Shown piece after piece: positions 30,079-45,949 of a stretch of DNA of 64,000 nt; the stretch's first letter is position 1, and every line of letters begins with the position of its first letter. Source of the stretch: Allobosea sp. CS1GBMeth4 (GTDB taxonomy: Bacteria; Pseudomonadota; Alphaproteobacteria; Rhizobiales; Beijerinckiaceae); assembly GCF_900185715.1 (NCBI RefSeq), contig NZ_FYAS01000016.1:124001-188000 (forward strand), given 5' to 3'. Position numbers and translations under genes: made by a program. Below the pieces are notes generated by a model. The model saw nothing but the letters and a program-made list of their open reading frames with translations, was not told where the DNA came from and made no database searches.

Positions 30079-31716
30079 CTACGACGCCGCCACGGCCGCC
30101 GACCAGGGCGAGGCGGCGTCGCTGATGCCGTCCTGTTCCCCTTGCCCGGCCCGCACCATGTTCGGGCAGGCGAAGTTGAGCGGCAACACGCCGTGCTCGA
30201 CCACGCTCAGCGGGCCGGCGGCGGCGAGCGCGGCGAGCGTGCCCTCCGGCAGGCGCGCATCGGCGCTCGTGCCATCCGGTCCGGAGACGTCGATGCGCGG
30301 CTGATGCGCGGCATCCTCCAGGCTCATGCCGCAATCGAGGGTGAAGGCCAGCATCTGGTAGACGCTGGCGAGGATGCGCCGCCCGCCCGAGGCGCCCGCT
30401 CCATAGCGCGGAACGCCGCCGTCGGCCGGCGTCACCACCACGGGACACATGTTGCAGAGCGGGCGCGCGCCCGGCGCGATCGCATTGGCGCTGCCGGGGC
30501 GCGGATCGAACCACATCATCCCGTTGTTCATCAGCACCCCGGTCTCGGGCAGGACGAGACGGCTGCCCATCGACGAGAGAAGGGTCGTCGTCAGCGCGAC
30601 GATGGTGCCCTCGCCATCGACCACCGTCAGATGCGTCGTGCAGGTCTCGGCCGGCTCCTTGGCCATCTGTGCCGCGCCCAGCCCCGAGAGCCGGCTGGCA
30701 TAGGCTTCGCGCATCACCTGCGAGAGCTTGACGAACCAGGCCGAATCCGGCCCGCCCGCCGGCGGCGGGCTGCCGGCCATGCCCTCGACCACCGCCTGCA
30801 GGGTCGGCGCCGCCGTCAGGCCTCCGGCGGTATGGATGCGGTGCGTGCCGCGCCAGTCGATCACCGGCGCCTCGCGCACACTCGCCCGGCAATCGGCCAG
30901 ATCCTGCGCGTCGACCACGCCGCCGGCCCTGGCGATGTCGGCGGCCAGCCGCGCCGCCAGCTCGCCGCGATAGAAATCGTCGAGCCCCGCCCTGGCGAGA
31001 TGCTCGAGCGTCGCGCCGAGATTGCCGAGCCTCATGAAGCCCGGCACGCCCTGATAGGGCGGCACCGGCGGCAGCCCGTCCGGCAGGTAGATGCGGGCAC
31101 TTTCCTCGTAGAGCCGCAGGATCGAGGCTGAGGAAGCGATCTTCAGCGTCGTGTACCAGTCCTGCGCCAGGCCGCGCTTCGCCAGGCCGATCGCCGGCTG
31201 GAGCAGCTCGGAGACCGGCATGCTCGTCCCGAACCTGTCCTTCAGCGTGGCGTAACCCGCGACGGAGGACGGGATGCAGAACGAGAGCGGGCCATGGATG
31301 TTGCGGTCGCCGACGACGCCGGGCCAGGCGAAGAAATCGAGCTTCATCTCGCCGGTCAGCGGATAATCGGCAGGATCGGCCCGCCGGGACGCGACCGGGC
31401 CGAAATCGACGACCTGCGCCCGGCTTTCGCCTGCCTTCAGCACGACGCCGAAGCCGATGCCGCCGAGGCCGCTGTTCCAGGGCTCGACCGCGGCCAGTGC
31501 GAAAGCGGTCGCCACCGCGGCGTCGGCGGCGTTGCCTCCCGCCGCGAGGATCGCCGCGCCGGCCGCGGCCGCCTCGTGGTTCTGCGAGACGACGATGCCG
31601 TTGCGGCCGCGCGCCGAAGGCTTGGTCAGGCTCCAGTTCTGGGTGCGGTAGGCGCGGGCGCGGTGCGGTTCGGCGATGGTCATGACGGTCTCGTGCAGGG
31701 CGGTGACGACCGTCAT
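30079..31716 (-). CDS. Gamma-glutamyltransferase-family Ntn hydrolase, cytoplasmic type (GGT copy 3)
   Basis: 545 residues from the ATG at 31716; a GTG at 31743 and an ATG at 31683 are alternatives and no clear Shine-Dalgarno decides. GGT motifs: AAGGNAADAAVATAFALA, GLGGIGFG, and CTTHLTVVD with the predicted nucleophile Thr360. Small-subunit motifs are SSMGSRL and NNGMMWFDPRPGSANAIAPG. No signal peptide. It is convergent with the orphan SBP at 28438. The sequence is divergent from copies 1 and 2, so these are not recent duplicates. Confidence 0.88.
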   Translation of the reverse strand: MTVVTALHETVMTIAEPHRARAYRTQNWSLTKPSARGRNGIVVSQNHEAAAAGAAILAAGGNAADAAVATAFALAAVEPWNSGLGGIGFGVVLKAGESRAQVVDFGPVASRRADPADYPLTGEMKLDFFAWPGVVGDRNIHGPLSFCIPSSVAGYATLKDRFGTSMPVSELLQPAIGLAKRGLAQDWYTTLKIASSASILRLYEESARIYLPDGLPPVPPYQGVPGFMRLGNLGATLEHLARAGLDDFYRGELAARLAADIARAGGVVDAQDLADCRASVREAPVIDWRGTHRIHTAGGLTAAPTLQAVVEGMAGSPPPAGGPDSAWFVKLSQVMREAYASRLSGLGAAQMAKEPAETCTTHLTVVDGEGTIVALTTTLLSSMGSRLVLPETGVLMNNGMMWFDPRPGSANAIAPGARPLCNMCPVVVTPADGGVPRYGAGASGGRRILASVYQMLAFTLDCGMSLEDAAHQPRIDVSGPDGTSADARLPEGTLAALAAAGPLSVVEHGVLPLNFACPNMVRAGQGEQDGISDAASPWSAAVAAS

Positions 31717-31813
31717 CGTGGCACGCCGTTCCGGGGAGGTCACGGGCCGGCGATGCGGGACGGGGCCGCGCCTTGCGCCGGTCTGGCCGGGCGCCGGCCG
31801 GCCGCGGTCCCTG

Positions 31814-32996: not shown

Positions 32997-34253
32997 CTAC
33001 GTCGCGGCGGCAGGATCGGCGACCGGCTGGACCGCCTCGGCTGCCGCGGGATTGCGCACCAGGCGAGGCGCGGTTGCATCGAGCAGCGGCAGTGCCGCGG
33101 CGCCGAGCGCTGCCGTGAACTGCCCCGTCGTGCCGCGCTGGACCCGCGGAACCGAACGCTCGCCGCCTCTGGCGACGGCGAGCGGCAGCGGCGCAGCCGC
33201 CGCGATCAGCGCGTCGATGACGCTGTCGGGCAGGGCGCCGCCGAGCACGATCGTCTCCGGGTCGAACAGGCTCTCCAGCATGGCGAGCACCGGCGTGAGC
33301 AGGGCGCCGGCCTGCGCGATCCAGCCCAGCACCGCCGGATGGCCCTCCGCCTGGAGCCTGGCGATGCCGGCGGCGTCGACCGGCCCGATACCGGCCAGGC
33401 GCAGCGCCTCCTGCAGCGCCGGCGGCGAGACATAGCGCTCGAGGCAGCCCCGGCGGCCGCAGACGCAGGGCAGGCCCTGCGGAACCGCCGGGAGATGGCC
33501 GATCTCGCCGGCATTGCCGAAGGCGCCGCGATAGGGCTCGCCGTCGAGCATCAGCCCGAGCCCGAGCCCGAGCCCGAAATAGACCAGGCAGACATGCCGC
33601 AGATTGCGGCCGACGCCGTAGAGATGCTCGCCGACGGCCGCCGCCGTCGCGTCGTTCTCGATCGTCACCGGGGTGCCGAGCGCCGCGCTCATCAGTGCCG
33701 TCACGTCCTGGCCGGTCCAGCCCGGCAAGGCGGTCGAGCCCACGGTGAGCGTGCCCTGGAAGTCGAAGGGACCCGGCATCACCACGCCGCAGCCGAGCAG
33801 GCGCTCCGGGATATCCGCCCCGGCCCGCACCTGCGCCAGTTCCTGCGCCGCGACCATCTGCACCGCCTCGACCGCCAGGTCCGGCAGCGGCGCGACGCGG
33901 CGCGCCCTGACCTCGCCGGCGAGGTCGACCAGCACGGTGGTGACATGGTCGGCGGCGATCTCCATGCCGGCCGTGACGCCGCCGGCGGCGTTGAGCGCGA
34001 AGTCGACCGGGGGCTGGCCGCGCGCCGTGCGCCGGCGGCCGAGCTCGACGAGGAAGCCCTCCTCCAGCAATTCGGCGACGATGTTGGAGACTGCCTGCGC
34101 CGTCAGCCGGGTCAGGTTGGCGATGTCGGAGCGACCGAGCCGGCCATGCTGGCGCAAGGTCTCCAGCACGACCCGCCGGTTATGCCGGCGCGCCCGCTCG
34201 GGATTGGTCCCGAGGGCTGCGCTGTGGGCGGCTGGCGGCTTGCGATGCGGCAT
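32997..34253 (-). CDS. ROK-family transcriptional repressor (NagC/XylR type)
   Basis: A 418-residue ROK regulator. An N-terminal winged helix (VVLETLRQHGRLGRSDIANLT, about residues 24-75) is fused to a sugar-kinase-like ROK domain with NDA (in IENDATAAAVGEH), GEIGH and the zinc motif CVCGRRGCLE. The kinase phosphate motif at the domain start is degenerate (GVTAGMEIA), which favours a sensor over an active kinase. It is divergent from the SBP-permease-lyase-kinase-SIS operon and is its likely repressor. Upstream in-frame starts run into the operator region and are not preferred. Confidence 0.88.
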   Translation of the reverse strand: MPHRKPPAAHSAALGTNPERARRHNRRVVLETLRQHGRLGRSDIANLTRLTAQAVSNIVAELLEEGFLVELGRRRTARGQPPVDFALNAAGGVTAGMEIAADHVTTVLVDLAGEVRARRVAPLPDLAVEAVQMVAAQELAQVRAGADIPERLLGCGVVMPGPFDFQGTLTVGSTALPGWTGQDVTALMSAALGTPVTIENDATAAAVGEHLYGVGRNLRHVCLVYFGLGLGLGLMLDGEPYRGAFGNAGEIGHLPAVPQGLPCVCGRRGCLERYVSPPALQEALRLAGIGPVDAAGIARLQAEGHPAVLGWIAQAGALLTPVLAMLESLFDPETIVLGGALPDSVIDALIAAAAPLPLAVARGGERSVPRVQRGTTGQFTAALGAAALPLLDATAPRLVRNPAAAEAVQPVADPAAAT

Positions 34254-34295
34254 CGGGAGGCTCGGCTCTGTCTCGGCCCACAGGCTGCGACGGCG

Positions 34296-34320
34296 ATTAA
34301 TCCAACTCAAGTGAATTAAT
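34296..34320. promoter_or_regulatory. Candidate ROK operator and adjoining -35 box
   Basis: An imperfect 25-bp palindrome with perfect ATTAAT/ATTAAT ends, AT-rich in a GC-rich genome and typical of NagC/XylR-type sites. TTGACA at 34324-34329 directly follows and is a good -35 for the sugar operon; the -10 (AAGCAT at 34347) is weak. Repression by the divergent ROK protein is inferred. Confidence 0.5.
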
Positions 34321-34423
34321 TGGTTGACAGCCGCGGGCCGCCGGCAAAGCATGGCGCGGGATGTCCGGCCGGCCGGGAGCCGATGCAGGCGGGCGTCGCA
34401 ACCAGACGGGGGAGGTAGAGATC

Positions 34424-35683
34424 ATGCGCGGCCTTCGCGGATTGTTCCTGGGCCTGGCGATGTCGGTCGGCGCGATCGCCGGAGCCCGCGCCCAGGCGGT
34501 CGAGATCGAGTATTGGCAATACGTGTTCGACGCCCGCATCAAGGCGATGAACGAGCTGATCAAGCGCTTCGAGGCCGCCAACCCGACCATCAAGGTCAAG
34601 CACACCACCTTCCCCTATGCCGACTACCAGACCAAGATCGCCGCGGCGGCGCCGGCCGGCCAGGGTCCCGACGTGGTCCAGCTCTTCTATGGCTGGGTCG
34701 ACAACTTCATCGCCGGCAAGGTCATCCGGCCGCTGCCGCGCGACGCCTTCCCGCCCGAGATGATCGAGAAGGAATTCTACCCGATCGTCTCGGCGATGAA
34801 GCGCGAGGGCGAGTATTACGGCCTGCCGACGGCGGTGCGCTCGCTGGCACTGTTCTACAACAAGAAGATCTTCCAGGAGGCCGGCCTCGATCCGGCCAAG
34901 CCGCCGAAGACGCTCGACGAGTACCTCGATGCCGCGAAGAAGGCGACGAAGCGCGACGGCGCCGGCAACATGCTGCAGGCCGGCGTGACGCTCGACATGC
35001 CCGGCCAGGACTATCATTGGTGGCGCGAGGTGCTGCTGCGCCAGATGGGCGGCAAGCCCTATTCCGATGACAACAGGACCGTCGCCTATGACAGCGAGGC
35101 CGGCGCCAGGTCGCTCGCCTGGTATGCCGACCTCCAGCGCGTCCACAAGGTCGGGCTCGCCGGCTTCATGGACGAGGGCCAGGCCGCCTTCCGCGCCGGC
35201 CGCGCCGCCATGACGATCGACGGCTCCTTCCGCCTCGGCGCCTTCGGCGGCATCAAGAATTTCGAATGGGGCGTCGCCGAGCTGCCGGCCGGCCCGGACG
35301 GGACGAAGTCCAACTTCGCCAGCTACTGGGTCAACGCCATCACCACCAAGCCTTCGGGCGAGAAGCTGGAGGCGGCAAAGAAGTTCATGGCCTTCGTCAC
35401 CTCGCCCGAGGCGATGCAGCTCTGGCTGGAGTCCGTCGGCGAGTTGCCGGCGCGCAAGGCGGTGGCCGAGACCGAGAAGAACCTCGGCCACCCGGTCTAC
35501 GGGCCGTTCCTGAAGGCGCTGAACTACTCGCAGGCGACGGTCTTCGTCGACGAGATGCCGCAGCGCCAGGTCATCCTCGACATGGCCAACCGCGTGCTGC
35601 TCCAGAACCAGGAGCCGAAGGCGGCACTCGCCGAGGCGGCCAAGGCCGAGCAGGCGATCCTCGACCGCTTCTACAAGAAGTGA
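34424..35683 (+). CDS. Family-1 (sugar-type) ABC substrate-binding protein
   Basis: A 419-residue periplasmic SBP of the MalE/UgpB-like family. Signal peptide residues 1-24 (ending ARAQA). Motifs are FEAANPTIKVKHTTFPYADYQTKI, GQGPDVVQLFYGW and YGLPTAVRSLALFYNKKIF. It opens the ROK-controlled operon; GGGGGAGG lies 8 nt before the ATG. The sugar-type family and downstream kinase/SIS genes point to a sugar or sugar-conjugate ligand. Confidence 0.93.
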   Translation: MRGLRGLFLGLAMSVGAIAGARAQAVEIEYWQYVFDARIKAMNELIKRFEAANPTIKVKHTTFPYADYQTKIAAAAPAGQGPDVVQLFYGWVDNFIAGKVIRPLPRDAFPPEMIEKEFYPIVSAMKREGEYYGLPTAVRSLALFYNKKIFQEAGLDPAKPPKTLDEYLDAAKKATKRDGAGNMLQAGVTLDMPGQDYHWWREVLLRQMGGKPYSDDNRTVAYDSEAGARSLAWYADLQRVHKVGLAGFMDEGQAAFRAGRAAMTIDGSFRLGAFGGIKNFEWGVAELPAGPDGTKSNFASYWVNAITTKPSGEKLEAAKKFMAFVTSPEAMQLWLESVGELPARKAVAETEKNLGHPVYGPFLKALNYSQATVFVDEMPQRQVILDMANRVLLQNQEPKAALAEAAKAEQAILDRFYKK

Positions 35684-35702
35684 GACCTGTCGGGATCAAT
35701 AC

Positions 35703-35807
35703 CGTCATTCCGGACAAGCAGCGACAGCCGCGCAGCTCCGGAATCCAGCGTAGCGCGCAGCCCTATGATGGATTCCGGGCCTCCGCTTCGCTCCGCCCGG
35801 AATGACG
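35703..35807. repeat. Intergenic palindromic element, family D copy 1
   Basis: Outer arms CGTCATTCCGG (35703-35713) and complement (35797-35807), plus internal TCCGGAATCCA/TGGATTCCGG arms. It sits between the SBP and first permease gene of one operon. Relatives at 47781-47879 and a fragment at 45221. Confidence 0.85.
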
Positions 35808-35835
35808 GGCGGATGGATCAACGGACCTCGCGCAG

Positions 35836-36771
35836 ATGAGCCTCTCGACACAGGACGACAGGGCGCAAGGCCGCCTCTGGCACGGCCTCAGCCTGCGGCA
35901 GAAGCAGGTGGCCTGGGCCTGGGCCTTCCTCGCCGTGCCGATCCTGTTCTACGGGCTGATCCGGTTCTATCCGACTCTCGAGGCCTTCGTGATCTCGACG
36001 ACGAAGTGGAACCTGATGACGCCGCCGAGCTTCGTCGGGCTGGCGAATTTCGAGCGCCTGCTCGCCGATCCGGTGTTCTGGAAGGTGTTCGGCAACACCT
36101 TCCTCTACCTCGTCATCGGCACGCCGCTCAGCCTCATCCTCGCCTTCGTCATCGCCTATCATCTCGACCGCGTCCGCTTCATGCACGGCTTCATCCGGGC
36201 GCTGTATTTCCTGCCCTTCCTGACCACGGCGGCGGCGATGGCCTGGGTCTGGCGCTGGTTCTACCAGCCGGTGCCGATCGGCCTGTTCAACAATCTGCTC
36301 GCCGGCTTCGGCATCGCCCAGCAACCCTTCCTGCGTTCGACCACGCAGGCGCTGCCGGCGGTGCTGGCGCCGGCGATCTGGGCCGGCCTCGGCTTCCAGG
36401 TCGTGATCTTCCTCGCCGGCCTGCGCGCCATCCCGACGACCTATTACGAGGCGGCGCGCATCGACGGCCTCCCCGATCTCGCCATCCTCAGGAAGATCAC
36501 GCTGCCGCTGCTCAAGCCGACGATCATCTTCCTCGTCGTCTTCTCATCGATCGGGTTCCTGCGGATCTTCGATCAGGTCTACAACATGACCAGCCAGACC
36601 AGCAGCGATCCGGGCGGGCCGCTGAACGCGACCAAGCCGCTGGTGCTGATGATCTACCAGACCGCCTTCTCCTCCTTCGACATGGGCTATGCCGCGGCGC
36701 AGACCGTCGTGCTCTTCCTCGTCCTGCTCTGCGTCTCGCTGCTGCAGCTGCGCCTGCTGAGGGACCGCTGA
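35836..36771 (+). CDS. Sugar ABC permease (UgpA/MalF-like)
   Basis: A 311-residue inner-membrane permease with six predicted helices. The coupling loop EAARIDGLPDLAILRKITLPLLKP is the classical EAA motif that docks the ATPase. The Shine-Dalgarno before the ATG is weak, perhaps because a large palindrome lies just upstream. Its stop overlaps the next start by one base. Confidence 0.92.
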   Translation: MSLSTQDDRAQGRLWHGLSLRQKQVAWAWAFLAVPILFYGLIRFYPTLEAFVISTTKWNLMTPPSFVGLANFERLLADPVFWKVFGNTFLYLVIGTPLSLILAFVIAYHLDRVRFMHGFIRALYFLPFLTTAAAMAWVWRWFYQPVPIGLFNNLLAGFGIAQQPFLRSTTQALPAVLAPAIWAGLGFQVVIFLAGLRAIPTTYYEAARIDGLPDLAILRKITLPLLKPTIIFLVVFSSIGFLRIFDQVYNMTSQTSSDPGGPLNATKPLVLMIYQTAFSSFDMGYAAAQTVVLFLVLLCVSLLQLRLLRDR

Positions 36772-37613
36772 TGAGCGCGACAGCCTCGCCGCTCTCCGGG
36801 CGGATCGAGCCCGGCCGCATCCTCGCCTGGCTGCTGCTGTTCGGCGGCGGCCTGATCATGGTGACGCCGCTCGCCTTCATGTTCGCGACCTCGCTGAAGG
36901 ATTCCTCCGAGATCTACGATCTCGCCTTCTTCCCGGCGCATCCGACGCTCGACAACTACGTCGCCGTTCTCTCGGACGGCCGTTTCCTGCGCTGGTTCGC
37001 CAACTCCTTCGGCATCGCGACAGCGGTGACGCTCTCCAACGTCTTCTTCGACAGCCTGGTCGGCTACACCCTGGCGAAGTTCCAGTTCCGCGGGCGCTAT
37101 CTCGTCTTCGTCGCCATCCTCTCGACGCTGATGATTCCGACCGAGATGCTGGTCATCCCCTGGTACGTCATGGCCAAGAACTTCGGCTGGCTCGACAGCT
37201 ATTGGGGCATCATGTTCCCCGGCATGATGACCGCCTTCGGCACCTTCCTGATGAAGCAGTTCTTCGAGACGGTGCCGAACGATTTCCTCGAAGCCGCCCG
37301 CGTCGACGGGCTCGGCGAGTTCGCGATCTTCTGGCGCATCGCCATGCCGCTGGTGACGCCGGCGCTGTCCGCGCTCGCGATCTTCACCTTCCTCAGCAAC
37401 TGGACGGCCTTCATCTGGCCGCTGATCGTGACGACGAGCAAGGAACTCTACACGCTCCCCGTCGGACTCACGAGCTTCGCCGTCGAGGCGCAGGTGCAAT
37501 GGGAGCTGATCATGACGGGCGCGGCGCTGGCGACCCTGCCGACGCTCACCGTCTTCCTGCTGCTGCAGCGCTACATCGTCCGCGGCGTCGTGCTCGCCGG
37601 ATTGAAGGGATGA
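36771..37613 (+). CDS. Sugar ABC permease (UgpE/MalG-like)
   Basis: A 280-residue permease, partner of the preceding gene. EAA loop EAARVDGLGEFAIFWRIAMPLVTP and the MalG-type SNWTAFIWPL and VRGVVLAGLKG ends are visible. Translationally coupled (TGATG) with UgpA-like and overlapping or abutting the lyase gene. Confidence 0.93.
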   Translation: MSATASPLSGRIEPGRILAWLLLFGGGLIMVTPLAFMFATSLKDSSEIYDLAFFPAHPTLDNYVAVLSDGRFLRWFANSFGIATAVTLSNVFFDSLVGYTLAKFQFRGRYLVFVAILSTLMIPTEMLVIPWYVMAKNFGWLDSYWGIMFPGMMTAFGTFLMKQFFETVPNDFLEAARVDGLGEFAIFWRIAMPLVTPALSALAIFTFLSNWTAFIWPLIVTTSKELYTLPVGLTSFAVEAQVQWELIMTGAALATLPTLTVFLLLQRYIVRGVVLAGLKG

Positions 37614-37618
37614 GTTCG

Positions 37619-39136
37619 ATGACCGAACCCGCGGACCCCCGCGTCAACGACAGATCCGTCTTTCCCGATCCGGTCTACCGGGAGACGGTGCTGCGCCCGC
37701 TCTTCGACGGCGCCAGGACGCATCATGTCGAAGGCTTCCGCGCCATCGACCGCGCCCATCTCGTCATGCTGGCGGAGACCGGGATTCTTCCGCAGGAGAC
37801 AGCCTCGCGCATCGCCTGCGCCCTGCTCGCGATCGAACGCGAGATCGATCCGGCGGCGCTGAGCTATACCGGCGAGGTCGAGGACTATTTCTTCCTGGTC
37901 GAGGCCGAATTGCGCAAGCGCCTCGGGCCCGATGACGACGGCCGGCTGCATACCGGCCGCTCGCGCAACGACATCGACCATACCCTGTTCAAGCTGGCGC
38001 TGAAGCCGAGGCTCGACGGCCTTGCCCGCCGACTGCGCGCCGTCATCGCCGCTGCGCTGACGCTGGCCGAACGCGAGAAGGCGACGCTGATCGTCGCCTA
38101 TACCCATGGTCAGCCGGCCCAGCCCTCGACGCTCGGCCATTACCTCTCCGCCGCGATCGAGGTGATGCTGCGCGACCACCGGCGCCTGATGCAGGCGCGC
38201 GAACTCATCGACCTCTGCCCGCTGGGCGCCGCCGCGATCACCACCTCGGGTTTCCCGCTCGACCGTCATCGTACCGCCCATCTGCTCGGCTTCGCGGCGC
38301 CCTTGCAGAACTCCTATGGCTGCATCGCCGCGGTCGACTACACGACGGCCGTCTTCAGCGCCGTGGAACTGGTGTTCCTGCATCTCGGCCGGCTGATTCA
38401 GGACCTGCAGTTCTGGACCGCCTTCGAGGTCGGCCAGATCTACGTGCCCAACGCCTTCGTGCAGATCTCCTCGATCATGCCGCAGAAGCGCAATCCGGTG
38501 CCGATCGAGCATCTGCGCCATTTGTCCTCGCAGACGGTCGGCCGCGCCCACCTGGTCCGCGACATCGTCCACAACACGCCGTTCACCGACATGAACGACT
38601 CGGAGGGCGAGACGCAGGAGGCTGGCTACCAGGCCTTCGAGAGCGGCGGGCGCGTGCTCGATCTGCTCGCCGCGCTGCTGCCGACGCTCTGCGTCGACGG
38701 CCGCCGCGTCGCCGAGACCGTCCGGCGCTCCTGCATCACGATCACCGAGCTCGCCGACACGCTGGTGCGCCGGGAGGGCCTTTCCTTCCGCGCCGCCCAC
38801 GAAATCGCCTCGGCGGTGGCGCGGGCCGTCGTCGCCAGGGATGGCGACCTGCCGCGCGATGGCTACGAGCCGTTCCTGGAAGCCTTCCGCCACGCCGCCG
38901 GCCGTGAGCCGGGCCTGAGCCGCGAGGCGTTCGGCAGCGCCGTCTCTCCGGAGAACTTCATCGCGGTGCGCGAACGCTTCGGCGGGCCGGGGCCGAAGGC
39001 CCTGGGCGAGGCCCTGGCCGGCTATCGGGCCGAGCTGACAGCGGCACAGGAGGCCGCCCTCGCGCTCGCCGGCCGCGAGGACGCCGCGCGTCGCGAGCTC
39101 GACGCGGCCTTCGCCGCCCTCGCAGGAGCCGCCTGA
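37619..39136 (+). CDS. Argininosuccinate-lyase-family protein in a sugar-transport operon
   Basis: A 505-residue member of the fumarase/aspartase superfamily, ArgH branch. These enzymes eliminate an amine (or other leaving group) from a succinyl moiety and release fumarate. Conserved blocks: LHTGRSRND (about 110-118), YTHGQPAQPSTLGH (161-174), and the flexible catalytic loop QISSIMPQKRNP (282-292). Ile119 sits where ArgH normally has Gln (SRNDQ), and it is about 40 residues longer than typical ArgH. GAAGGG is 9 nt before this ATG; an ATG at 37610 is the alternative start. No argG or other arginine gene is nearby. The operon context argues for another substrate, perhaps an N-succinyl (aspartyl) sugar conjugate (inference). 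Confidence 0.85.
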   Translation: MTEPADPRVNDRSVFPDPVYRETVLRPLFDGARTHHVEGFRAIDRAHLVMLAETGILPQETASRIACALLAIEREIDPAALSYTGEVEDYFFLVEAELRKRLGPDDDGRLHTGRSRNDIDHTLFKLALKPRLDGLARRLRAVIAAALTLAEREKATLIVAYTHGQPAQPSTLGHYLSAAIEVMLRDHRRLMQARELIDLCPLGAAAITTSGFPLDRHRTAHLLGFAAPLQNSYGCIAAVDYTTAVFSAVELVFLHLGRLIQDLQFWTAFEVGQIYVPNAFVQISSIMPQKRNPVPIEHLRHLSSQTVGRAHLVRDIVHNTPFTDMNDSEGETQEAGYQAFESGGRVLDLLAALLPTLCVDGRRVAETVRRSCITITELADTLVRREGLSFRAAHEIASAVARAVVARDGDLPRDGYEPFLEAFRHAAGREPGLSREAFGSAVSPENFIAVRERFGGPGPKALGEALAGYRAELTAAQEAALALAGREDAARRELDAAFAALAGAA

Positions 39137-40203
39137 TGGCCGGGATCGCGATCGAGAAACTGGTCAAGCGCTATGGCCAGACCCAGGTCGTGCACGGCCT
39201 CGACCTCAATATCCAGGACGGCGAATTCGTGGTCTTCGTCGGCCCCTCCGGCTGCGGCAAGTCGACGACCTTGCGCATGATCGCCGGGCTCGAGGAGATC
39301 GACGGCGGTACGATCGCGATCGGCGGCCGCATCGTGAACCGGCTCGAGCCGAAAGAGCGGAACATCGCCATGGTGTTCCAGAACTATGCGATCTACCCGC
39401 ATATGAGCGTCGCCGAGAACATCGCCTTCGGCCTCTACACCGCCGCGCTCGACAAGGCGCAGAAGCGCAGGCGTGTCGAGGAAGTCGCCGAAGTGCTCGG
39501 ACTGACGGCCCTGCTGGAGCGCCGCCCCTCCGCCCTGTCCGGCGGCCAGCGCCAGCGCGTGGCGATCGGCCGCGCCATGGTGCGCGACCCTGCCGTCTTC
39601 CTGTTCGACGAGCCGCTCTCAAACCTCGATGCGCAATTGCGCGCGCAGATGCGGCTCGAAATCAAGCGCCTGCACCAGCGGCTGCGCACCACCATCGTCT
39701 TCGTCACCCACGACCAGGTCGAGGCGATGACGCTGGCCGACCGGATCGTCGTGATGCGCGACGGCCGCATCCTCCAGGTCGGTGCCCCTATGGCGCTCTA
39801 CGAGAAGCCGGCCGACGTCTTCACCGCCCGCTTCATCGGCTCGCCGACGATGAACATCGTGCCGGCGAGGGCGACCGCGGAGGCTGGCAGCAGCAGCTTG
39901 CAGCTCGGGGAAACGCCGCTCGCCTGGTCCGCGGCCCTCCCCACGGATGTCCTTGTCGGCGTCCGGCCGCAGGAACTGCGCGTACTGGAACACGGCGAGA
40001 GCGCCGATCTCGTTCTCTCCGGCAGCGTCGCCGTGGTCGAGCCGCTCGGCCCGGAGACCTTCGTCCATGTCGAGGCCGAGGGCGGATTGCTGCTCGCCTC
40101 GGCCCCGGCCCGGAACCCGCCCGCCGTCGGCAGTGCCGTCAGGCTCGGCGCCGCGGCCGCGGCGCTGCACCTGTTCGACGCCAAGAGCGAGCGCGCCTTG
40201 TGA
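39136..40203 (+). CDS. Sugar ABC ATPase (UgpC/MsmK/MalK type)
   Basis: A 355-residue ATPase: Walker A GPSGCGKST (about 36-44), signature LSGGQRQRV, Walker B FLFDEPLSNLD, switch His in FVTHDQVEA. A C-terminal TOBE-like domain (about 240-355) is typical of the sugar/glycerol-phosphate class. Start and stop overlap both neighbours (TGATG, GTGA). As the only ATPase of this class in the window, it could also energise the ATPase-less importer at 46925-50349. Confidence 0.94.
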   Translation: MAGIAIEKLVKRYGQTQVVHGLDLNIQDGEFVVFVGPSGCGKSTTLRMIAGLEEIDGGTIAIGGRIVNRLEPKERNIAMVFQNYAIYPHMSVAENIAFGLYTAALDKAQKRRRVEEVAEVLGLTALLERRPSALSGGQRQRVAIGRAMVRDPAVFLFDEPLSNLDAQLRAQMRLEIKRLHQRLRTTIVFVTHDQVEAMTLADRIVVMRDGRILQVGAPMALYEKPADVFTARFIGSPTMNIVPARATAEAGSSSLQLGETPLAWSAALPTDVLVGVRPQELRVLEHGESADLVLSGSVAVVEPLGPETFVHVEAEGGLLLASAPARNPPAVGSAVRLGAAAAALHLFDAKSERAL

Positions 40204-41159
40204 TCTCCGCGCGGCCACGGCCGGACGGGCTCGTGCTCAGCACCGGCCGGCTCTATTGCGATCTCGTCTTCCGGGGGCTGGCGGCGATGCCGCGTCTCGG
40301 CGAAGAGCGCTTCGCCGAGGATGTCGCGATCGTCCCCGGCGGCGGCGGCTTCATCACCGCGGCCCATCTCGCCGGGCTCGGGCGGCCCGCGGCCCTGCTT
40401 TCGCGCCTCGGCGAGGACCCGCTTTCGCAATCGCTCCTGCCGGCGCTCGCGGCCAGCGGCGTCGATCTCGCCTTCCTGGAGCGCGCCGCCGATGCCGGCC
40501 CGCAGCTCACCGTCGCGATGGTCCGGGACGGCGAACGCGCCTTCCTCTCGCGCCGCGCCGGCCGGGCCCGCCCGGCGACGCTCGCCGCCGCCCTCGGCGA
40601 TGTCCGTGCCACTCATCTCCACGTCGCCGAATTCGCGACGCTGGCCGAGATCCCGCATCTGGTCACCGACGCCAGGCATCACGGTCTCACGGTCTCGCTC
40701 GACCCGAGCTGGGACGATGCCCTGATCCGCTCGCCCGATCTCGTCGCGCGCTGCAGCGGCGTCGACATTTTCCTGCCGAATGCGTCGGAGGCGCGGGCGA
40801 TCGCCGGTTGCGACGATCTCGACGCGGCCGGGCAGCGGCTCGCGCAACATTTTCCGCTGGTGGCGATCAAGGACGGCGACGCCGGCGCCCGTCTCCATCG
40901 GGTCGGCGCGAGCCTGGCGCTCCCCGCCGCGGCCTGCCGGGCGGTGCTCGACACCACCGGCGCGGGCGACGCCTTCAATGCCGGCTTCCTCGCCGCCTGG
41001 CTCGCCGGGCGGTCCCCCGAACGCGCCCTCGCCGAGGGCATCGCCTGTGGTACGCTCTCGGTCGAGAATGTCGGCGGCGCCGGCCACGCGCTCGATCGGC
41101 GCCGGGTCGCCCGCATCGCCGACCAGCTGCTCGAGACGCCGCTGCGACGCCATGGCTGA
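40200..41159 (+). CDS. PfkB-family sugar kinase
   Basis: A 319-residue ribokinase/PfkB-fold kinase with a GTG start in a 4-nt GTGA overlap with the ATPase. Signature 1 is GGGGFITAAHLAGLG (about 47-61). Signature 2 is DTTGAGDAFNAGFLAAWLAG with catalytic base Asp257. It probably phosphorylates the imported sugar or a product of the lyase. The specific sugar is not predictable from sequence. Confidence 0.9.
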   Translation: MISARPRPDGLVLSTGRLYCDLVFRGLAAMPRLGEERFAEDVAIVPGGGGFITAAHLAGLGRPAALLSRLGEDPLSQSLLPALAASGVDLAFLERAADAGPQLTVAMVRDGERAFLSRRAGRARPATLAAALGDVRATHLHVAEFATLAEIPHLVTDARHHGLTVSLDPSWDDALIRSPDLVARCSGVDIFLPNASEARAIAGCDDLDAAGQRLAQHFPLVAIKDGDAGARLHRVGASLALPAAACRAVLDTTGAGDAFNAGFLAAWLAGRSPERALAEGIACGTLSVENVGGAGHALDRRRVARIADQLLETPLRRHG

Positions 41160-42177
41160 GGCCCTGCTCACCCGCGAGGCGACCGAGGTCGCCGCCGTCG
41201 CCCGCCGCCAGATCGCGGGGAACGGCGCCATCATCGCCGATCTCGTGCAGCGCCTGCACATCAAGCGGCCCGCCTTCGTCGCGACCTGCGCGCGCGGCTC
41301 CTCCGACCATGCCGCGACCTATGGCAAATACCTGATCGAACGGACGCTCGGCCTGCCGGTCGCCTCGCTCGGCCCGAGCCTCGCCTCGGTCTATGGCGGC
41401 GAGCTCGATCTCTCCCGCGCCATGTTCATCGCCGTCTCGCAATCCGGCCGCAGCCCCGACGCGCTGCTGCTGACCGAAGCGGCGCGGCGCGCCGGGGCGC
41501 TCGTCGTCGGCTTCGTCAATGACGAGGCGTCTCCGCTCGCAGGCATGGTCGACGTGCTCCTGCCATTGTGCGCGGGGCCTGAACACAGCGTCGCCGCGAC
41601 CAAGAGCTTCCTCGCCACCTGCCTCGCCTTCCTCCATCTGGTGGCGGAATGGGCGCAGGACCAGGCCTTGTCCGGCGCTCTGGAGCAGGCGCCCGAGGCG
41701 CTCGACGCGGCCGGATCCTGCGACTGGAGGCCGGCGCTGCTGTCCTGGCGCGACGCGCGGAGCCTCTACGTCATCGGCCGGGGCCTCTCCTTCGGCATTG
41801 CCCAGGAGATCGCGCTCAAGTTCAAGGAAACCTGTCGCGTCCACGCCGAGGCCTTCAGCGCCGCGGAGGTCCTGCATGGACCGCTGGCCCTGGTCGGTCC
41901 CGGCTTCCCGGCGCTGGCGCTCGACCCTGGCGACGAGGGCAGCGAAAGCGTCGCCGCCGCCGCCGCGGCCTTTCTCGGGCTCGGCGCCGATCTGCGCTAT
42001 GCCGGCAGCCGGGCCGGCGCGGGACAAGGCTTGCCGCTGCCGCCCGGCCTGCCGGCCGCCTTGCAGCCGCTGGCGCAGGTCCGCGCCTTCTACGGCGCCG
42101 TCGCGGCGCTCGCGCGCAGCCGCGGCCTCGACCCCGACTGCCCGCCCAACCTGTCCAAGGTGACGCGAACGGTCTGA
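41152..42177 (+). CDS. SIS-domain sugar-phosphate isomerase/deaminase (GlmS-C/NagB-II-like)
   Basis: A 341-residue protein of two SIS domains, like the isomerase half of GlmS without its glutaminase domain. CARGSSDHAATYGKYLIE and VSQSGRSPDAL are in SIS1. ATKSFLAT, GRGLSFGIAQEIALKFKE and HAEAFSAAEVLHGPLAL are in SIS2, ending NLSKVTRTV. This class includes glucosamine-6-phosphate deaminases (NagB-II/AgaS) and Amadori deglycases. The sequence is closer to the GlmS/NagB-II pattern than to FrlB. It overlaps the kinase gene by 8 nt and probably acts on the kinase product. Confidence 0.88.
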   Translation: MAEALLTREATEVAAVARRQIAGNGAIIADLVQRLHIKRPAFVATCARGSSDHAATYGKYLIERTLGLPVASLGPSLASVYGGELDLSRAMFIAVSQSGRSPDALLLTEAARRAGALVVGFVNDEASPLAGMVDVLLPLCAGPEHSVAATKSFLATCLAFLHLVAEWAQDQALSGALEQAPEALDAAGSCDWRPALLSWRDARSLYVIGRGLSFGIAQEIALKFKETCRVHAEAFSAAEVLHGPLALVGPGFPALALDPGDEGSESVAAAAAAFLGLGADLRYAGSRAGAGQGLPLPPGLPAALQPLAQVRAFYGAVAALARSRGLDPDCPPNLSKVTRTV

Positions 42178-42182
42178 ACGAT

Positions 42183-43469
42183 CTACCTGCCCAGCACCAG
42201 GTTCGGCAGCCAGGTCGTCAGCGGCGGCCAGAGCGTCACCGCCAGCAGCACCGCCAGCAGCGGCAGCAGCCAGGGCACGATCGCGCGCGACATCGCCTCG
42301 AAACTGATCTTCGCGATCTTCGAGGTGACGAAGAGCACGACTCCGACCGGGGGCGTGATCGTGCCGATCATCAGGTTGAGCACGAAGATCAGTCCGAACT
42401 GGATCGGGTCGATGCCGAATTGCGCCGCAGCCGGCGTCAGGATCGGAATCAGGATCAGCATCGCCGCCAGCGCTTCCATGAAGCAGCCGACGAAGAGCAG
42501 CAGCAGGTTGACGATCAGCAGGAAGACGAAGGGATTGCCGGCGAGATCGACGATCATCGGCCCGACCGTCTGCGGAATGCGCGAGATCGACAGGCACCAG
42601 CCCAGTGCCGCCGCAGTCATCACCAGCGCCAGCACGACCCCGGTGGTCTCGACCGTCTGCACCGCCAGTTCCGGCAGGTCGTCGAGCGAGAAGCTCCTGT
42701 AGACGAAGAGGCCGAGCACGATCGCATAGGCGGTCGCGACCGCGGCGGCCTCCGTCGGTGTGAAGATGCCGGCCATCATCCCGCCGAACAGGATCACCGG
42801 CGTCATCAGCGCCCAGTGCGCCTCCTTGTAGGCGGCCCAGAGCTGGGCGCCCCCGGGGAAGGGATGGCGCGGCAGGTCCTTCTTCCGGGCGACATGGACC
42901 ACCATCGCCATCAGCGCGCCGGCCATCAGCAGGCCGGGGATGACCCCGGCCAGGAACAGGCCGCCGATCGAGACGTCGGCCGAGACGCCGTAGATCACCA
43001 TCGGCAGCGAGGGCGGGATGATCGGCCCGATCGTCGCCGAGGCGGCCGTGATCGCCGCCGCCGTTTCCGGATCGTAGCCCTCGTCCTGCATCGCCTTGAT
43101 CTCGAGCGTGCCGACGCCGCCGGCATCGGCCACCGCCGAGCCCGACATGCCGGCGAAGATCACGCTGGCGAGGATGTTGGCGTGGCACAGGCCGCCGCGG
43201 AGCCAGCCGACGCAGGCCGTCGCGAAGGCGAAGATCCGGTCGGTGATCCCCGCCGAGTTCATGATGTTGCCCATCAGGATGAACAGCGGCGCGGCGAGCA
43301 GCGGGAAGGAATTCGCCGACTGCGCGATCTTCTGCGGGACGATTCCGAGCGGGAAGGCGCCGAAATAGGCGAAGGCGATGGCCGCCAGCCCCATCGAGAC
43401 GAAGAGCGGCACGCCGAGCAGCAGCGCGGCGAACCAAACCGGCAGGAGCTGCAGCATCAGAGCGCTCAT
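42183..43469 (-). CDS. dctM: TRAP transporter large permease (DctM type)
   Basis: A 428-residue, very hydrophobic protein of about 12 helices. DctM motifs: PLFILMGNIMNSAGIT, FAGMSGSAVADAGGVGTLEIKAM, SATIGPIIPPSLPMVIYG and NLMIGTITPPVGVVLFVTS. It carries Na+-coupled uptake of an organic acid delivered by DctP. Start overlaps the DctQ stop (ATGA). It ends 5 nt from the convergent SIS gene. Confidence 0.94.
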   Translation of the reverse strand: MSALMLQLLPVWFAALLLGVPLFVSMGLAAIAFAYFGAFPLGIVPQKIAQSANSFPLLAAPLFILMGNIMNSAGITDRIFAFATACVGWLRGGLCHANILASVIFAGMSGSAVADAGGVGTLEIKAMQDEGYDPETAAAITAASATIGPIIPPSLPMVIYGVSADVSIGGLFLAGVIPGLLMAGALMAMVVHVARKKDLPRHPFPGGAQLWAAYKEAHWALMTPVILFGGMMAGIFTPTEAAAVATAYAIVLGLFVYRSFSLDDLPELAVQTVETTGVVLALVMTAAALGWCLSISRIPQTVGPMIVDLAGNPFVFLLIVNLLLLFVGCFMEALAAMLILIPILTPAAAQFGIDPIQFGLIFVLNLMIGTITPPVGVVLFVTSKIAKISFEAMSRAIVPWLLPLLAVLLAVTLWPPLTTWLPNLVLGR

Positions 43470-43963
43470 AGCGGCTGCGTCCCCGGCTCGGCGTCCTCGA
43501 CCCTGCGGCCGGCGACGACGACGCCGATCTCGGCCAGCGCCTGCAGGATCAGCGCCAGCCCCGCGAGCGGCATCACCACGTAGAGCGCCGCGCTGGTGAT
43601 CGGCAGGGCGATCGATTCGACGTCCCAGGTGCGCTCGATCAGCCCGAAGGAATAGCGGATCAGGATCGCGGCGAAGACGATGATCGCGGCTTGCGTCACG
43701 ATCTCCAGCATGCGTCCGGCCGGTTTCGGCAGCAGGTCGGCGAAGACCGTGATCCGGATATGCGAGCGCCGCCGCGCCGCGATGATCCAGCCGACGAAGC
43801 CGGTCCAGACAAGGAGGTACTGAGCCAGCTCGTCGGTCCAGGCGAGCGGAGCGTTGAGCTGGCGCGAAGCGACGCCGAGGAGAACCGCGACGAGCAGCGC
43901 CAGCAACAGCCCGACGGCGGCCGCGCGCACCAGGCGGTCGGTGAAGGCGACGAGGGATTTCAT
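43466..43963 (-). CDS. dctQ: TRAP transporter small permease (DctQ type)
   Basis: 165 residues, four predicted helices, with family motifs VASRQLNAPLAWTDELAQYLLVW and RRRSHIRITV. The ATG at 43963 starts just before the first helix; longer in-frame starts would read through a palindromic repeat. Partner of the DctM and DctP genes around it. Confidence 0.9.
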   Translation of the reverse strand: MKSLVAFTDRLVRAAAVGLLLALLVAVLLGVASRQLNAPLAWTDELAQYLLVWTGFVGWIIAARRRSHIRITVFADLLPKPAGRMLEIVTQAAIIVFAAILIRYSFGLIERTWDVESIALPITSAALYVVMPLAGLALILQALAEIGVVVAGRRVEDAEPGTQPL

Positions 43964-43977
43964 GAGCGTCCATGATG

Positions 43978-44119
43978 AGGGCGCGGGATCCCCTCTCCCG
44001 GATGGGAGAGGGGCAGGGGAGAGGGATCGCCGCGGACCAAGGGGGTGAGGTGGCGCCGTTGCGCCTTCTGCGGTGAGGGCGGGCCGTTCTCCCATCCGGG
44101 AGAAAGGTTCCCCGCGCCT
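43978..44119. repeat. Long palindromic element, family A
   Basis: Near-complementary arms at 43978-44010 and 44088-44119 (both contain CTCTCCC/CTCCCGGATGGGAGA-type cores) flank a GC-rich middle. Its ends match the compact 46-bp version at 18875-18920. It lies between DctP and DctQ genes. Confidence 0.75.
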
Positions 44120-44141
44120 GTCCCGGCCATCGCCGCGCTCT

Positions 44142-45134
44142 CTACAGCGCCGCGAGCGCGTCCCAGGTGCCCTTGCCCCATTTGCTCTCGAACTGCTTGG
44201 GCAGGCTGGCCAGCACCGGCTTGCTGAAGCTCTCCAGATCGGGCTCGGTCACGCTCATGCCTGCGGCCTTCAGCGTCGCGACCAGGCTGCCCTCCTGGCT
44301 CGCGAGCTCCGCATCCTGCCAGGCGACGCCGTTGGCGATCGCCGCTTCCAGGATCGTCCGGTCGGCATCCTTCAGCCCCTTCCAGAAGTCCTGGTTGATG
44401 ACGATCAGGCGCGGCGTGATGATGTGGCCGGTCAGGATCAGATGCTTCTGCACCTCCTGCAATTTGGCGCTGTGGATGGTCGGCAGCGGGTTCTCCTGTC
44501 CGTCGACCGCGCCCTGGCTCAGCGCCAGATAGAGCTCGTTGAAGTTGACCGGCGTCGCCTTGGCGCCCCAGGCCTCGACCATGGCGCGGAAGGTGTCGAC
44601 CGGCGGCACGCGCAGCTTGAGGCCGGCGACGTCGGCGGCGCTCTTCACCGGCTTGGAGCCGGTGGTGAGATGGCGCTTGCCGTAATAGGTCACCGCCGCC
44701 ATGCGCATGCCGCGCTTCTTGACGAGCTCGTCGTTCATCTGGGCGAAGACCGGCGCCTTGGCGACCTTGGCCATATGCCCCGGATCGCGCCAGAGATAGG
44801 GCGCCTCGATCACGGAGAGCTGGGGCAGGAAGGAGCCGAGCGCGGCAGCGCCGTCCGTGGTCATGGTCAGCGCGCCCGAGGCCACCGATTCCATCATGTC
44901 CTTGCCCGAGCCGAGCTGCCCAGCCGGGAAGGACTGGATGTCGATCCGGCCCGCGGTCTTCTCCTTCACCTCCTTGGCGATGCGCTCGACCATCTGCACC
45001 TGCGGATGCGTGGTCGGCAGCATCTCGCCCCAGCGCATCACCGTCGCCTGCGCGCGCAGCACGGTCGGCATCGCGAGCATGGTGCCTGCCGCCGCGGAAC
45101 CGGCGAGAAAGGCGCGTTTCGTCAGCTTCGTCAT
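44142..45134 (-). CDS. dctP: TRAP transporter solute-binding protein (DctP type)
   Basis: 330 residues. Signal KRAFLAGSAAAGTMLAMPTVLRAQA resembles a Tat/Sec signal. DctP motifs: FPAGQLGSGKDMMESV, LKLRVPP with the ligand-carboxylate-binding Arg, and VNFNELYLALSQGAVDGQENP. TRAP SBPs usually bind carboxylates such as sugar acids, consistent with the neighbouring aldolase. The ATG at 45134 is preferred because earlier in-frame starts add a non-signal tail. Confidence 0.93.
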   Translation of the reverse strand: MTKLTKRAFLAGSAAAGTMLAMPTVLRAQATVMRWGEMLPTTHPQVQMVERIAKEVKEKTAGRIDIQSFPAGQLGSGKDMMESVASGALTMTTDGAAALGSFLPQLSVIEAPYLWRDPGHMAKVAKAPVFAQMNDELVKKRGMRMAAVTYYGKRHLTTGSKPVKSAADVAGLKLRVPPVDTFRAMVEAWGAKATPVNFNELYLALSQGAVDGQENPLPTIHSAKLQEVQKHLILTGHIITPRLIVINQDFWKGLKDADRTILEAAIANGVAWQDAELASQEGSLVATLKAAGMSVTEPDLESFSKPVLASLPKQFESKWGKGTWDALAAL

Positions 45135-45220
45135 GGTCGGTCTCCTCCCAATCTGGCCGGTTCTCCGGCTCGATTCACGTTCGAATACAGCTCGATGGGC
45201 TTCCGCCCGTTCAGGGCCCG

Positions 45221-45243
45221 CCGTCATTCCGGGACAGGGGCGT
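45221..45243. repeat. Truncated family D palindrome
   Basis: CGTCATTCCGGGACAGGGG matches the left end of the family D elements (35703, 47781) but no right arm follows. It lies in the 126-nt gap between DctP and GntR genes. Probably a decayed copy. Confidence 0.4.
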
Positions 45244-45260
45244 TTCCATGCGGTCTCCCG

Positions 45261-45935
45261 TCAGTAGCTCATCGCCCGGGTCCGGGCGTTGTTGATGTGC
45301 TCGCTCATCGCGGCGGCGGCCTTGTCCGGATCGCGCGATTCGATCGCGGCGATGATCTTGAGGTGGTCCTGCATCACGGGGACCAGGATATGGTTCTGGA
45401 TGCGCGTCTCGTACTGCCGGATCAGCCGGATCTTCAGCCAGGTGACGCGGAAGGCCTGGCTGACGATGTCGTTGTCGAGATGGTCGATGATCGCCTCGTG
45501 CATCCGCCGGTCGACATCCTCGGCGTCCTCGATCAGCCTCTCGTCGCCGCCGGCCTCGGCCCGGCGAATGATCGCCTCGTGCCGTTCGCGCTGCTCGGCG
45601 ATCTCGGCGTCGGTCGCGGTCTGCGTATAGGCGACGGTCGCCTCCTTCTCGAGGAAGAGCCGGAACTGGAAGGCATTGCGGATCAGGTTGAGGTCGACAT
45701 GGGCGACCTGCATGCCGCGTTGCGGCACGGTCTTGATCAGCCCTTCCGCCTCGAGCCGCGGGATCAGCTCGCGGATCGCGCCGAGCGGAAAGCCCGTCAT
45801 GGCGACGAGCTCGCGCTGGGTCACGAACTGGCCGGGCCGGATTTCGCGCGCGAGCAGCCGCTCGGTGAAGCTGGCATAGGCCCGCTCCCTGAGCTTCAGC
45901 GGCTCGCCCTCGCGGTCCGGCTCGGACTGGCTCAT
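45261..45935 (-). CDS. GntR/FCD-family transcriptional regulator
   Basis: A 224-residue regulator. Winged helix at about residues 15-80 (TQRELVAMTGFPLGAIRELIPRL, QRGMQVAH wing), then an FCD domain with DRRMHEAIIDHLDN, DHLKIIAAIESRD and MSEHINNAR. It is flanked by the DapA-type aldolase and the TRAP SBP on the same strand, so it probably controls this sugar/sugar-acid locus. The effector may be a sugar acid or 2-oxo acid. Confidence 0.9.
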   Translation of the reverse strand: MSQSEPDREGEPLKLRERAYASFTERLLAREIRPGQFVTQRELVAMTGFPLGAIRELIPRLEAEGLIKTVPQRGMQVAHVDLNLIRNAFQFRLFLEKEATVAYTQTATDAEIAEQRERHEAIIRRAEAGGDERLIEDAEDVDRRMHEAIIDHLDNDIVSQAFRVTWLKIRLIRQYETRIQNHILVPVMQDHLKIIAAIESRDPDKAAAAMSEHINNARTRAMSY

Positions 45936-45949
45936 CTCGTCTGCCTCCC

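Follow-up and report, generated by a model that had tools for sequence, protein, structure and literature searches.

An ArgH-type lyase in a sugar-importer operon of Allobosea sp. CS1GBMeth4: a candidate cassette for the breakdown of glucosamine–malate conjugates

Introduction

We have analysed a 64,000-nucleotide stretch of DNA from the alphaproteobacterium Allobosea sp. CS1GBMeth4 (assembly GCF_900185715.1, contig NZ_FYAS01000016.1, positions 124,001 to 188,000, forward strand), referred to here as the window, and in it an operon that combines a lyase of the ArgH superfamily with a sugar importer, a PfkB-family kinase and a SIS-domain protein. A first-pass annotation had proposed that the operon takes up an N-linked sugar–aspartate conjugate, for example an Amadori-type fructosyl-aspartate, from which the lyase removes fumarate. 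Comparison of the locus across genomes leads us to keep the general idea of a lyase that opens an amino-sugar conjugate, which is supported, and to propose another substrate.

Results

The operon consists of a ROK-family gene and, divergent from it, a run of genes on the plus strand (34424-42177) for a substrate-binding protein (SBP), two permeases, the lyase, an ATPase, the PfkB kinase and the SIS protein. Neighbouring genes overlap by 1-8 bases at all five junctions from permease 1 through SIS, and the spacing between the SBP gene and permease 1 is 152 bases. This arrangement, with the last six genes bound by overlaps, had already been described, and both the coordinates and the Pfam families (ROK; SBP_bac_1/8; BPD_transp_1 twice; Lyase_1 with ASL_C2; ABC_tran with TOBE; PfkB; SIS) agree with that description. 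The features are as follows, positions being those of the window:

32997..34253, minus strand: ROK-family transcriptional regulator, winged helix and ROK domain (PF00480, E 1.4e-42; MarR/HTH_24 near cut-offs)
34307..34318, no strand assigned: likely operator core TCAAGTGAATTA within the inverted repeat ATTAATCCAACTCAAGTGAATTAAT, between the ROK and SBP genes
34424..35683, plus strand: SBP of a CUT1-type sugar ATP-binding cassette (ABC) importer (PF13416, E 1.2e-41; PF01547, E 1.5e-38)
35836..36771, plus strand: ABC permease 1 (PF00528, E 9.7e-14; top NCBIfam model UgpA, below cut-off)
36771..37613, plus strand: ABC permease 2 (PF00528, E 6e-20; top NCBIfam model UgpE, below cut-off)
37610..39136, plus strand: ArgH-superfamily lyase, putatively fumarate-eliminating (PF00206, E 4.4e-39; ASL_C2)
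39136..40203, plus strand: ABC ATPase of UgpC/MalK type (NF008653, 475 bits, cut-off 432)
40200..41159, plus strand, GTG start: PfkB-family sugar kinase, putative glucosamine kinase (PF00294, E 1.4e-37)
41152..42177, plus strand: SIS-domain protein of NagB-II type (NF046059, E 2.9e-94, 316 bits, cut-off 430)

An alternative, longer start of the ROK gene is possible at 34352. The N-terminus of the SBP looks by eye like a signal peptide, and among the best 60 of 515 matches in the PDB its relatives are generic sugar/oligosaccharide binders and UgpB-type binders only.

The lyase has the fold of the aspartase/fumarase superfamily and its signature motifs SRND, THxQ and SSxMPQKxNP, and its model is closest to ethylenediaminedisuccinate (EDDS) lyase and argininosuccinate lyase (ASL), at 22-33% identity. 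It barely passes the argH model TIGR00838 (281.1 against a cut-off of 279.5), and many of its relatives are annotated argH in the database. Canonical ArgH, ArgH2 and one further ArgH-like gene sit elsewhere in the same genome. Neither the WGGRF start nor the LPLTYSKDMQEDK loop of the genome's own ArgH occurs in the cassette lyases; the ArgH loop LPLxYxKDxQEDK, which we take to form the substrate side of that enzyme, is replaced by HNTPFTDMND, a sequence that does not vary among the 17 cassette lyases aligned. In a tree of 48 of 106 sequences, with long branches and two ArgH references only, 33 alphaproteobacterial cassette lyases make up one clade (97/100) and the genome's ArgH and ArgH2 another (100/100). 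The lyase is neither the sole nor the canonical ArgH of its genome, so that the refuting case which the first-pass annotation had named for its proposal does not arise. A duplicate of canonical ArgH was rejected in view of the other copies, the replaced loop and the separate clade. The NCBIfam model XcbC matches the lyase with E 5.5e-53, at 180 bits against a cut-off of 575. A different ArgH-like gene in this genome (L005/L097, at G000:C39:52000-71900) adjoins an ABC ATPase gene and, by eye, an amino-acid-type permease gene, possibly forming a second conjugate-lyase operon.

Among five NCBIfam families the SIS protein scores best with NagB-II glucosamine-6-phosphate deaminase (316 bits over 338 of 342 amino acids), followed by glmS (144 bits) and, at 28.3 bits, fructoselysine-6-phosphate deglycase; the curated cut-off is 430 for NagB-II and likewise for the FrlB deglycase model NF008481. 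In the PDB its top two matches are a FecR regulator (7kqa) and a putative phosphosugar isomerase (3fj1), and a glucosamine-6-phosphate deaminase comes next (8eol, E 1.5e-67). The motifs LKFKE, HGP and NLSK, which we assume to have a mechanistic role, are present. From these matches the protein likely belongs to the NagB-II family, at a score below the curated cut-off. An Amadori deglycase operon was rejected in view of the deglycase score. The PfkB protein reaches the cut-off of no NCBIfam kinase model and matches the fructoselysine 6-kinase model weakly, at 45 bits.

The conservation of the locus was followed in 116 lyase loci: the best 80 from a species-genome scan that returned 450 lyase relatives, 21 plasmid regions picked for variety from two sets of records (121 and 143, among the 60 listed of each), and 15 loci from 15 of the 24 genomes in the same order that hold the lyase. 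A gene was counted as present if a tblastn match of >60 bits to window or reference genes lay within 9 kb of the lyase. The nearest loci are those of Bosea and its kin, where lyase identity is 79-90% (L008-L023). Importer genes accompany the lyase in 78 of the 80 loci, the other two (L038 and L080) being cut by short contigs; a divergent ROK gene is found in 77 (L063 has no match), a PfkB gene in 75, and a gene for a PIG-L protein, absent from the cassette of the window, in 61. The SIS gene occurs in 17, chiefly in Bosea/Alsobacter, and lies outside the general cassette core. The company of the lyase with importer, ROK and PfkB genes is thus no matter of chance. Most loci combine importer, lyase, PfkB and PIG-L (56/80) or importer, lyase, PfkB and NagB-II without PIG-L (17/80; 16 Bosea/Alsobacter-type loci and L057); the others have PIG-L without a kinase match (4/80), PIG-L with a ROK kinase (1/80, L059) or are cut by a contig end (2/80). 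No locus has PIG-L together with NagB-II (0/80 by tblastn).

The importer lies beside the lyase in 17 of the 21 plasmid regions. Here a ROK kinase occurs with NagB-I (L104), with PIG-L and NagB-I (L105) or with a SIS gene (L108; NagB-II, E 1.8e-93), L106 has no kinase, and L109 has a gene for a hydrolase of the metallo-beta-lactamase (MBL) fold. Twelve of the 15 same-order loci carry the cassette: five with PIG-L and PfkB, three with PIG-L and no kinase match, one with PIG-L, PfkB and NagB-I (L131), two with an MBL-fold gene, ROK kinase and NagB-II (L127, L132) and one with an MBL-fold gene and ROK kinase (L128). The cassette is thus built of exchangeable parts, PfkB alternating with a ROK kinase and NagB-II with the unrelated NagB-I. 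As a side observation, four cassettes without PIG-L (L109, L127, L128, L132) have the MBL-fold gene in its stead, three of them with a ROK kinase and two of those with NagB-II. In the three other same-order loci, all of one genus (L124-L126), the lyase is 66-68% identical to that of the window and stands, without importer, beside a gene presumably resembling an FMN-dependent hydroxy-acid dehydrogenase; the vicinity presumably includes glycolate-oxidase-like and glutamate-cysteine-ligase-like genes, and L126 has an FAD-linked oxidase gene.

The more distant lyases of Haladaptatus, Natribaculum, Geminicoccaceae and Cupriavidus (30-37% identity) have no such cassette by tblastn. The survey frequency, the window's genome included, is 12 of 385 genomes in the class and 5 of 398 in the phylum. 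One record, titled Bacillus subtilis SK6B4 (L045), has a cassette resembling that of Pseudochrobactrum (L043, L054), and the assembly is probably mislabelled or contaminated.

A glucosamine-6-phosphate deaminase gene is present in 23 of the 24 lyase genomes, as NagB-II in 18 (E <= 1e-50) and otherwise as NagB-I in five (E <= 1e-60); the one exception is a genome of 67% completeness. The gene lies in or beside the cassette in five of these 23 genomes (G000, G100, G183, G245 and G259). In comparison, a deaminase is present in 11 of 56 genomes of the order that have no lyase (NagB-II in eight, NagB-I in three others). This set comprises G001-G060 minus four lyase genomes, out of 273 genomes with no lyase match; the NagB-I search used a threshold of E 1e-30 for lyase genomes and 1e-60 for lyase-free ones, and the counts of both were taken at 1e-60. 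With kinship ignored, the association gives a Fisher p of 8e-11 by genomes and of 9e-6 by genus (11/12 against 11/52). The sugar freed by the lyase is very probably glucosamine, since in one cassette kinases of two unrelated families replace each other, and so do two glucosamine-6-phosphate deaminases that are unrelated. In this respect the first-pass annotation, by which an amino sugar is freed, phosphorylated and then deaminated, very probably pointed in the right direction, as judged from the likeness to NagB-II, the swaps and the co-occurrence of the deaminase.

The loci also have a regulatory element in common. The string TCAAGTRAATTA is present in 56 of 86 stretches between the ROK and SBP genes, as delimited by the bounds of tblastn matches, that of the window included; the other 30 do not contain the exact string. 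It occurs once in the window, at 34307, and 58 times in the 1.62 Mb of the 85 other loci, 55 of these being in the ROK-SBP stretch. The inverted repeat with TCAAGTRAATTA is likely the operator of the ROK regulator.

The PIG-L protein of the cassette is ~800 amino acids long, with an N-terminal PIG-L domain in which AHPDDE and HGHH are invariant and a long C-terminal part; by eye, two sequences examined have no signal peptide. Its model, which is poor past residue ~660 (mean pLDDT 71), is closest to diacetylchitobiose deacetylase, Bacillus cereus BC1534, LnmX and MshB, and GalB (5cgz) has the same fold. A rearranged form of the cassette is found in seven Deinococcus plasmid regions, all with lyase and importer and four also with a small PIG-L and a gene annotated as a carbohydrate kinase. 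Three of the small PIG-L proteins were scanned and match the MshB, Mca and BshB models, all below cut-offs. In one locus (L116), genes for a cysteine dioxygenase, a drug/metabolite transporter (DMT) and PIG-L lie co-directionally behind the ROK gene, and the cysteine dioxygenase would suggestively fit a release of cysteine. The bacillithiol synthesis gene BshC was found in none of the 24 lyase genomes of the order, the window's own included (Deinococcus carriers are outside this count), by a search that was positive for the controls B. subtilis, Thermus composti and Deinobacterium chartae. On this basis we rejected the idea that carriers of this order recycle bacillithiol of their own making.

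The surroundings of the operon were read mainly by eye. Between the SBP and permease 1 genes, 35705-35805 is a palindromic element bounded by TCATTCCGG and CCGGAATGA; the pair is found in none of seven Bosea/Alsobacter-type loci compared, and one end in L010. It is possibly a small mobile element or a repetitive extragenic palindromic (REP)-like element within the operon. Downstream and convergent (42183-46846) are genes for a TRAP-type transporter, a GntR-like regulator and a dihydrodipicolinate-synthase-like protein, as we name them from their open reading frames, presumably a separate catabolic operon. Upstream, a gene at 30079-31743 resembles gamma-glutamyltransferase, and L008 has a PF01019 gene on the same side.

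Discussion

We consider it about an even chance, a probability of roughly 0.5, that the operon forms a catabolic cassette under the control of a repressor and serves to degrade a conjugate of glucosamine with a C4 dicarboxylate, most likely the alpha-glucosaminyl-L-malate core of bacillithiol. The gene content, the protein families, their conservation, the exchange of parts and the common operator string are observed; the ligand, the chemistry of the lyase and the order of steps we infer as follows. The ABC importer would bring the conjugate into the cell. Where the amino group is acylated, as in N-acetylglucosaminyl-malate or bacillithiol, PIG-L would strip the acyl group; in the genome of the window, the free-amine glucosaminyl-malate would be imported. 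The lyase would then beta-eliminate the malyl group, converting glucosaminyl-malate to glucosamine and fumarate, and the PfkB or ROK kinase, going by its family and the swaps, would produce glucosamine 6-phosphate. Finally NagB-II or NagB-I, an assignment well supported at the level of the family, would yield fructose 6-phosphate and ammonia.

The choice of malate follows from the PIG-L partner. The LmbE-like/PIG-L enzymes identified by 2014 are described as acting on N-acetyl- or N-acylglucosamine cores, including N-acetylglucosaminyl-malate (BshB) and bacillithiol conjugates (Bca) (PMC4101496), and GalB is an exception to this preference of the fold. If the nitrogen of the sugar is acylated, it is an unlikely point of attachment for an aspartate, and the group lost as fumarate should therefore sit on oxygen. 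Malate, attached at C1 of glucosamine, is probably the C4 acid. A better candidate than fructosyl-aspartate is accordingly an N-(acyl)glucosamine with the C4 dicarboxylate off the nitrogen, e.g. glucosaminyl-malate. GlcNAc-asparagine was rejected as substrate by reasoning, as the elimination would release ammonia rather than the sugar. Bacillithiol, Cys-GlcN-malate, is produced by many Firmicutes and by Deinococcus radiodurans (PMC4360819) and, with its N-methyl form, has been described as possibly the low-molecular-weight thiol of widest distribution in biology (PMC6282198). Given the missing BshC, the carriers of this order would use bacillithiol made by others. More tentatively, we thus suggest a pathway for the uptake and breakdown of the bacillithiol scaffold in non-producers, in which a glucosaminyl-malate lyase may cut an O-glycoside by beta-elimination and not by hydrolysis. 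A search of the open-licence literature returned no description of the cassette, nor of breakdown of the glucosaminyl-malate core by other bacteria. To our knowledge, a cleavage of glycosides in which the aglycone leaves as fumarate through beta-elimination is not described for the ArgH branch.

Several points weigh against this proposal. The cassette of the window is without PIG-L, the strongest pointer to an N-acylglucosamine, so that Bosea would import glucosaminyl-malate itself or the substrate would be a Heyns-type conjugate of aspartate and glucosamine; the genome's sole PIG-L gene (L088) stands beside what is presumably a GalD-like gene and, by eye, presumably resembles GalB. With PIG-L in 15 of the 24 lyase genomes, the protein is not required everywhere. 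The lack of any locus among the 80 with both PIG-L and NagB-II could mean two substrates; the two do co-occur genome-wide. EDDS lyase and ASL, the nearest solved enzymes, cleave C-N bonds. An elimination at a C-O bond would be out of the ordinary in the ASL branch, but it has precedent in the fumarases of the superfamily, which carry it out, and in a superfamily member of the XcbC (coenzyme M) pathway that is reported to eliminate phosphate (Partovi 2018, as cited in PMC11507031). Cysteine dioxygenase was found in one of 101 loci scanned, and the lyase of L124-L126 has no importer. The grouping of alphaproteobacterial and Deinococcus cassette lyases has weak support (50/96), and bacillithiol is made in the genus Deinococcus, so that recycling is possible there. 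NagB-II scores below the curated cut-off in all 24 lyase genomes, and none in the lyase-free set reaches it either. Lastly, three of six lyase-free genomes from lyase-holding families (G005, G015, G017, G021, G042 and G044) also have a deaminase, and part of the co-occurrence is therefore lineage.

A substrate that keeps to C-N cleavage, as in the closest relatives, would be the Heyns-type N-(1,2-dicarboxyethyl)glucosamine, in which the nitrogen of aspartate is bound to C2 of glucose and which the lyase would split into fumarate and glucosamine for the kinase and NagB-II. This accounts for kinase and deaminase and suits the form without PIG-L in the window, but it leaves the PIG-L of 61 loci without a task, the amine being alkylated and not acylated, and the gene content suggests no source of the compound; we regard it as unlikely. 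Also improbable in our estimation is another glucosamine ether or glycoside of malate, of plant, fungal or surface-polysaccharide origin, degraded by the same steps. The evidence for glucosamine and for a fumarate-forming lyase would apply equally, and soil, plants and sea water are the sources of many carriers, but the PIG-L genes resembling MshB, Mca and BshB and the one cysteine dioxygenase indicate thiol cofactors, and we know of no abundant natural glucosamine–malate compounds beyond the bacillithiol scaffold.

Fructosyl-aspartate, from which the lyase would free fructosamine for phosphorylation by PfkB and deglycation or isomerisation by SIS, is a substrate to which we give very little credence. 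PfkB with SIS is also the layout of the fructoselysine and fructose-asparagine systems (FrlD-FrlB and FraD-FraB), and the kinase has its weak match to fructoselysine 6-kinase, but the SIS protein scores 316 bits with NagB-II against 28 with the deglycase and is swapped for NagB-I, the kinase may be of ROK type, and PIG-L would be unexplained; the Amadori proposal of the first-pass annotation was given up on these grounds. That the lyase is a second argininosuccinate lyase placed by chance in a sugar operon, as the frequent argH names and the narrow pass of TIGR00838 might suggest, is scarcely credible given the ArgH, ArgH2 and ArgH-like genes elsewhere, HNTPFTDMND in place of the ArgH motifs and the clade separate from the two ArgH references.

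The glucosaminyl-malate cassette proposed here shares elements with several known systems. Its lyase differs from EDDS lyase and argininosuccinate lyase in sequence and in the replaced loop, and sits with a sugar importer, a sugar kinase and a gene of glucosamine-6-phosphate deaminase type. The SIS protein matches NagB-II (Shewanella SO3506) over its full length and has LKFKE, HGP and NLSK, but it scores 316 of the 430 bits of the cut-off and would be supplied by lyase and kinase instead of NagA. PIG-L in 61 loci and the model matches of the three small Deinococcus proteins recall BshB, Bca, MshB and Mca; unlike these, the main cassette PIG-L has its long C-terminal part and stays under the cut-offs, and the window's cassette has none. 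In the fructoselysine and fructose-asparagine operons a PfkB kinase and a SIS enzyme likewise share one operon, whereas the SIS here is of deaminase type and the lyase, the ROK regulator and often PIG-L are additional. XcbC, the ArgH-like enzyme of bacterial coenzyme M synthesis, is similar in its match to the lyase and unlike it in being biosynthetic and having a sulfonated substrate.

If the proposal is correct, it would reveal a common exchange of a nutrient in soil, plant and sea habitats, many argH annotations would be corrected, and a non-hydrolytic route would be added to the ways of cutting a glycosidic link. Even with another conjugate, the swaps of kinase and deaminase indicate glucosamine as the product.

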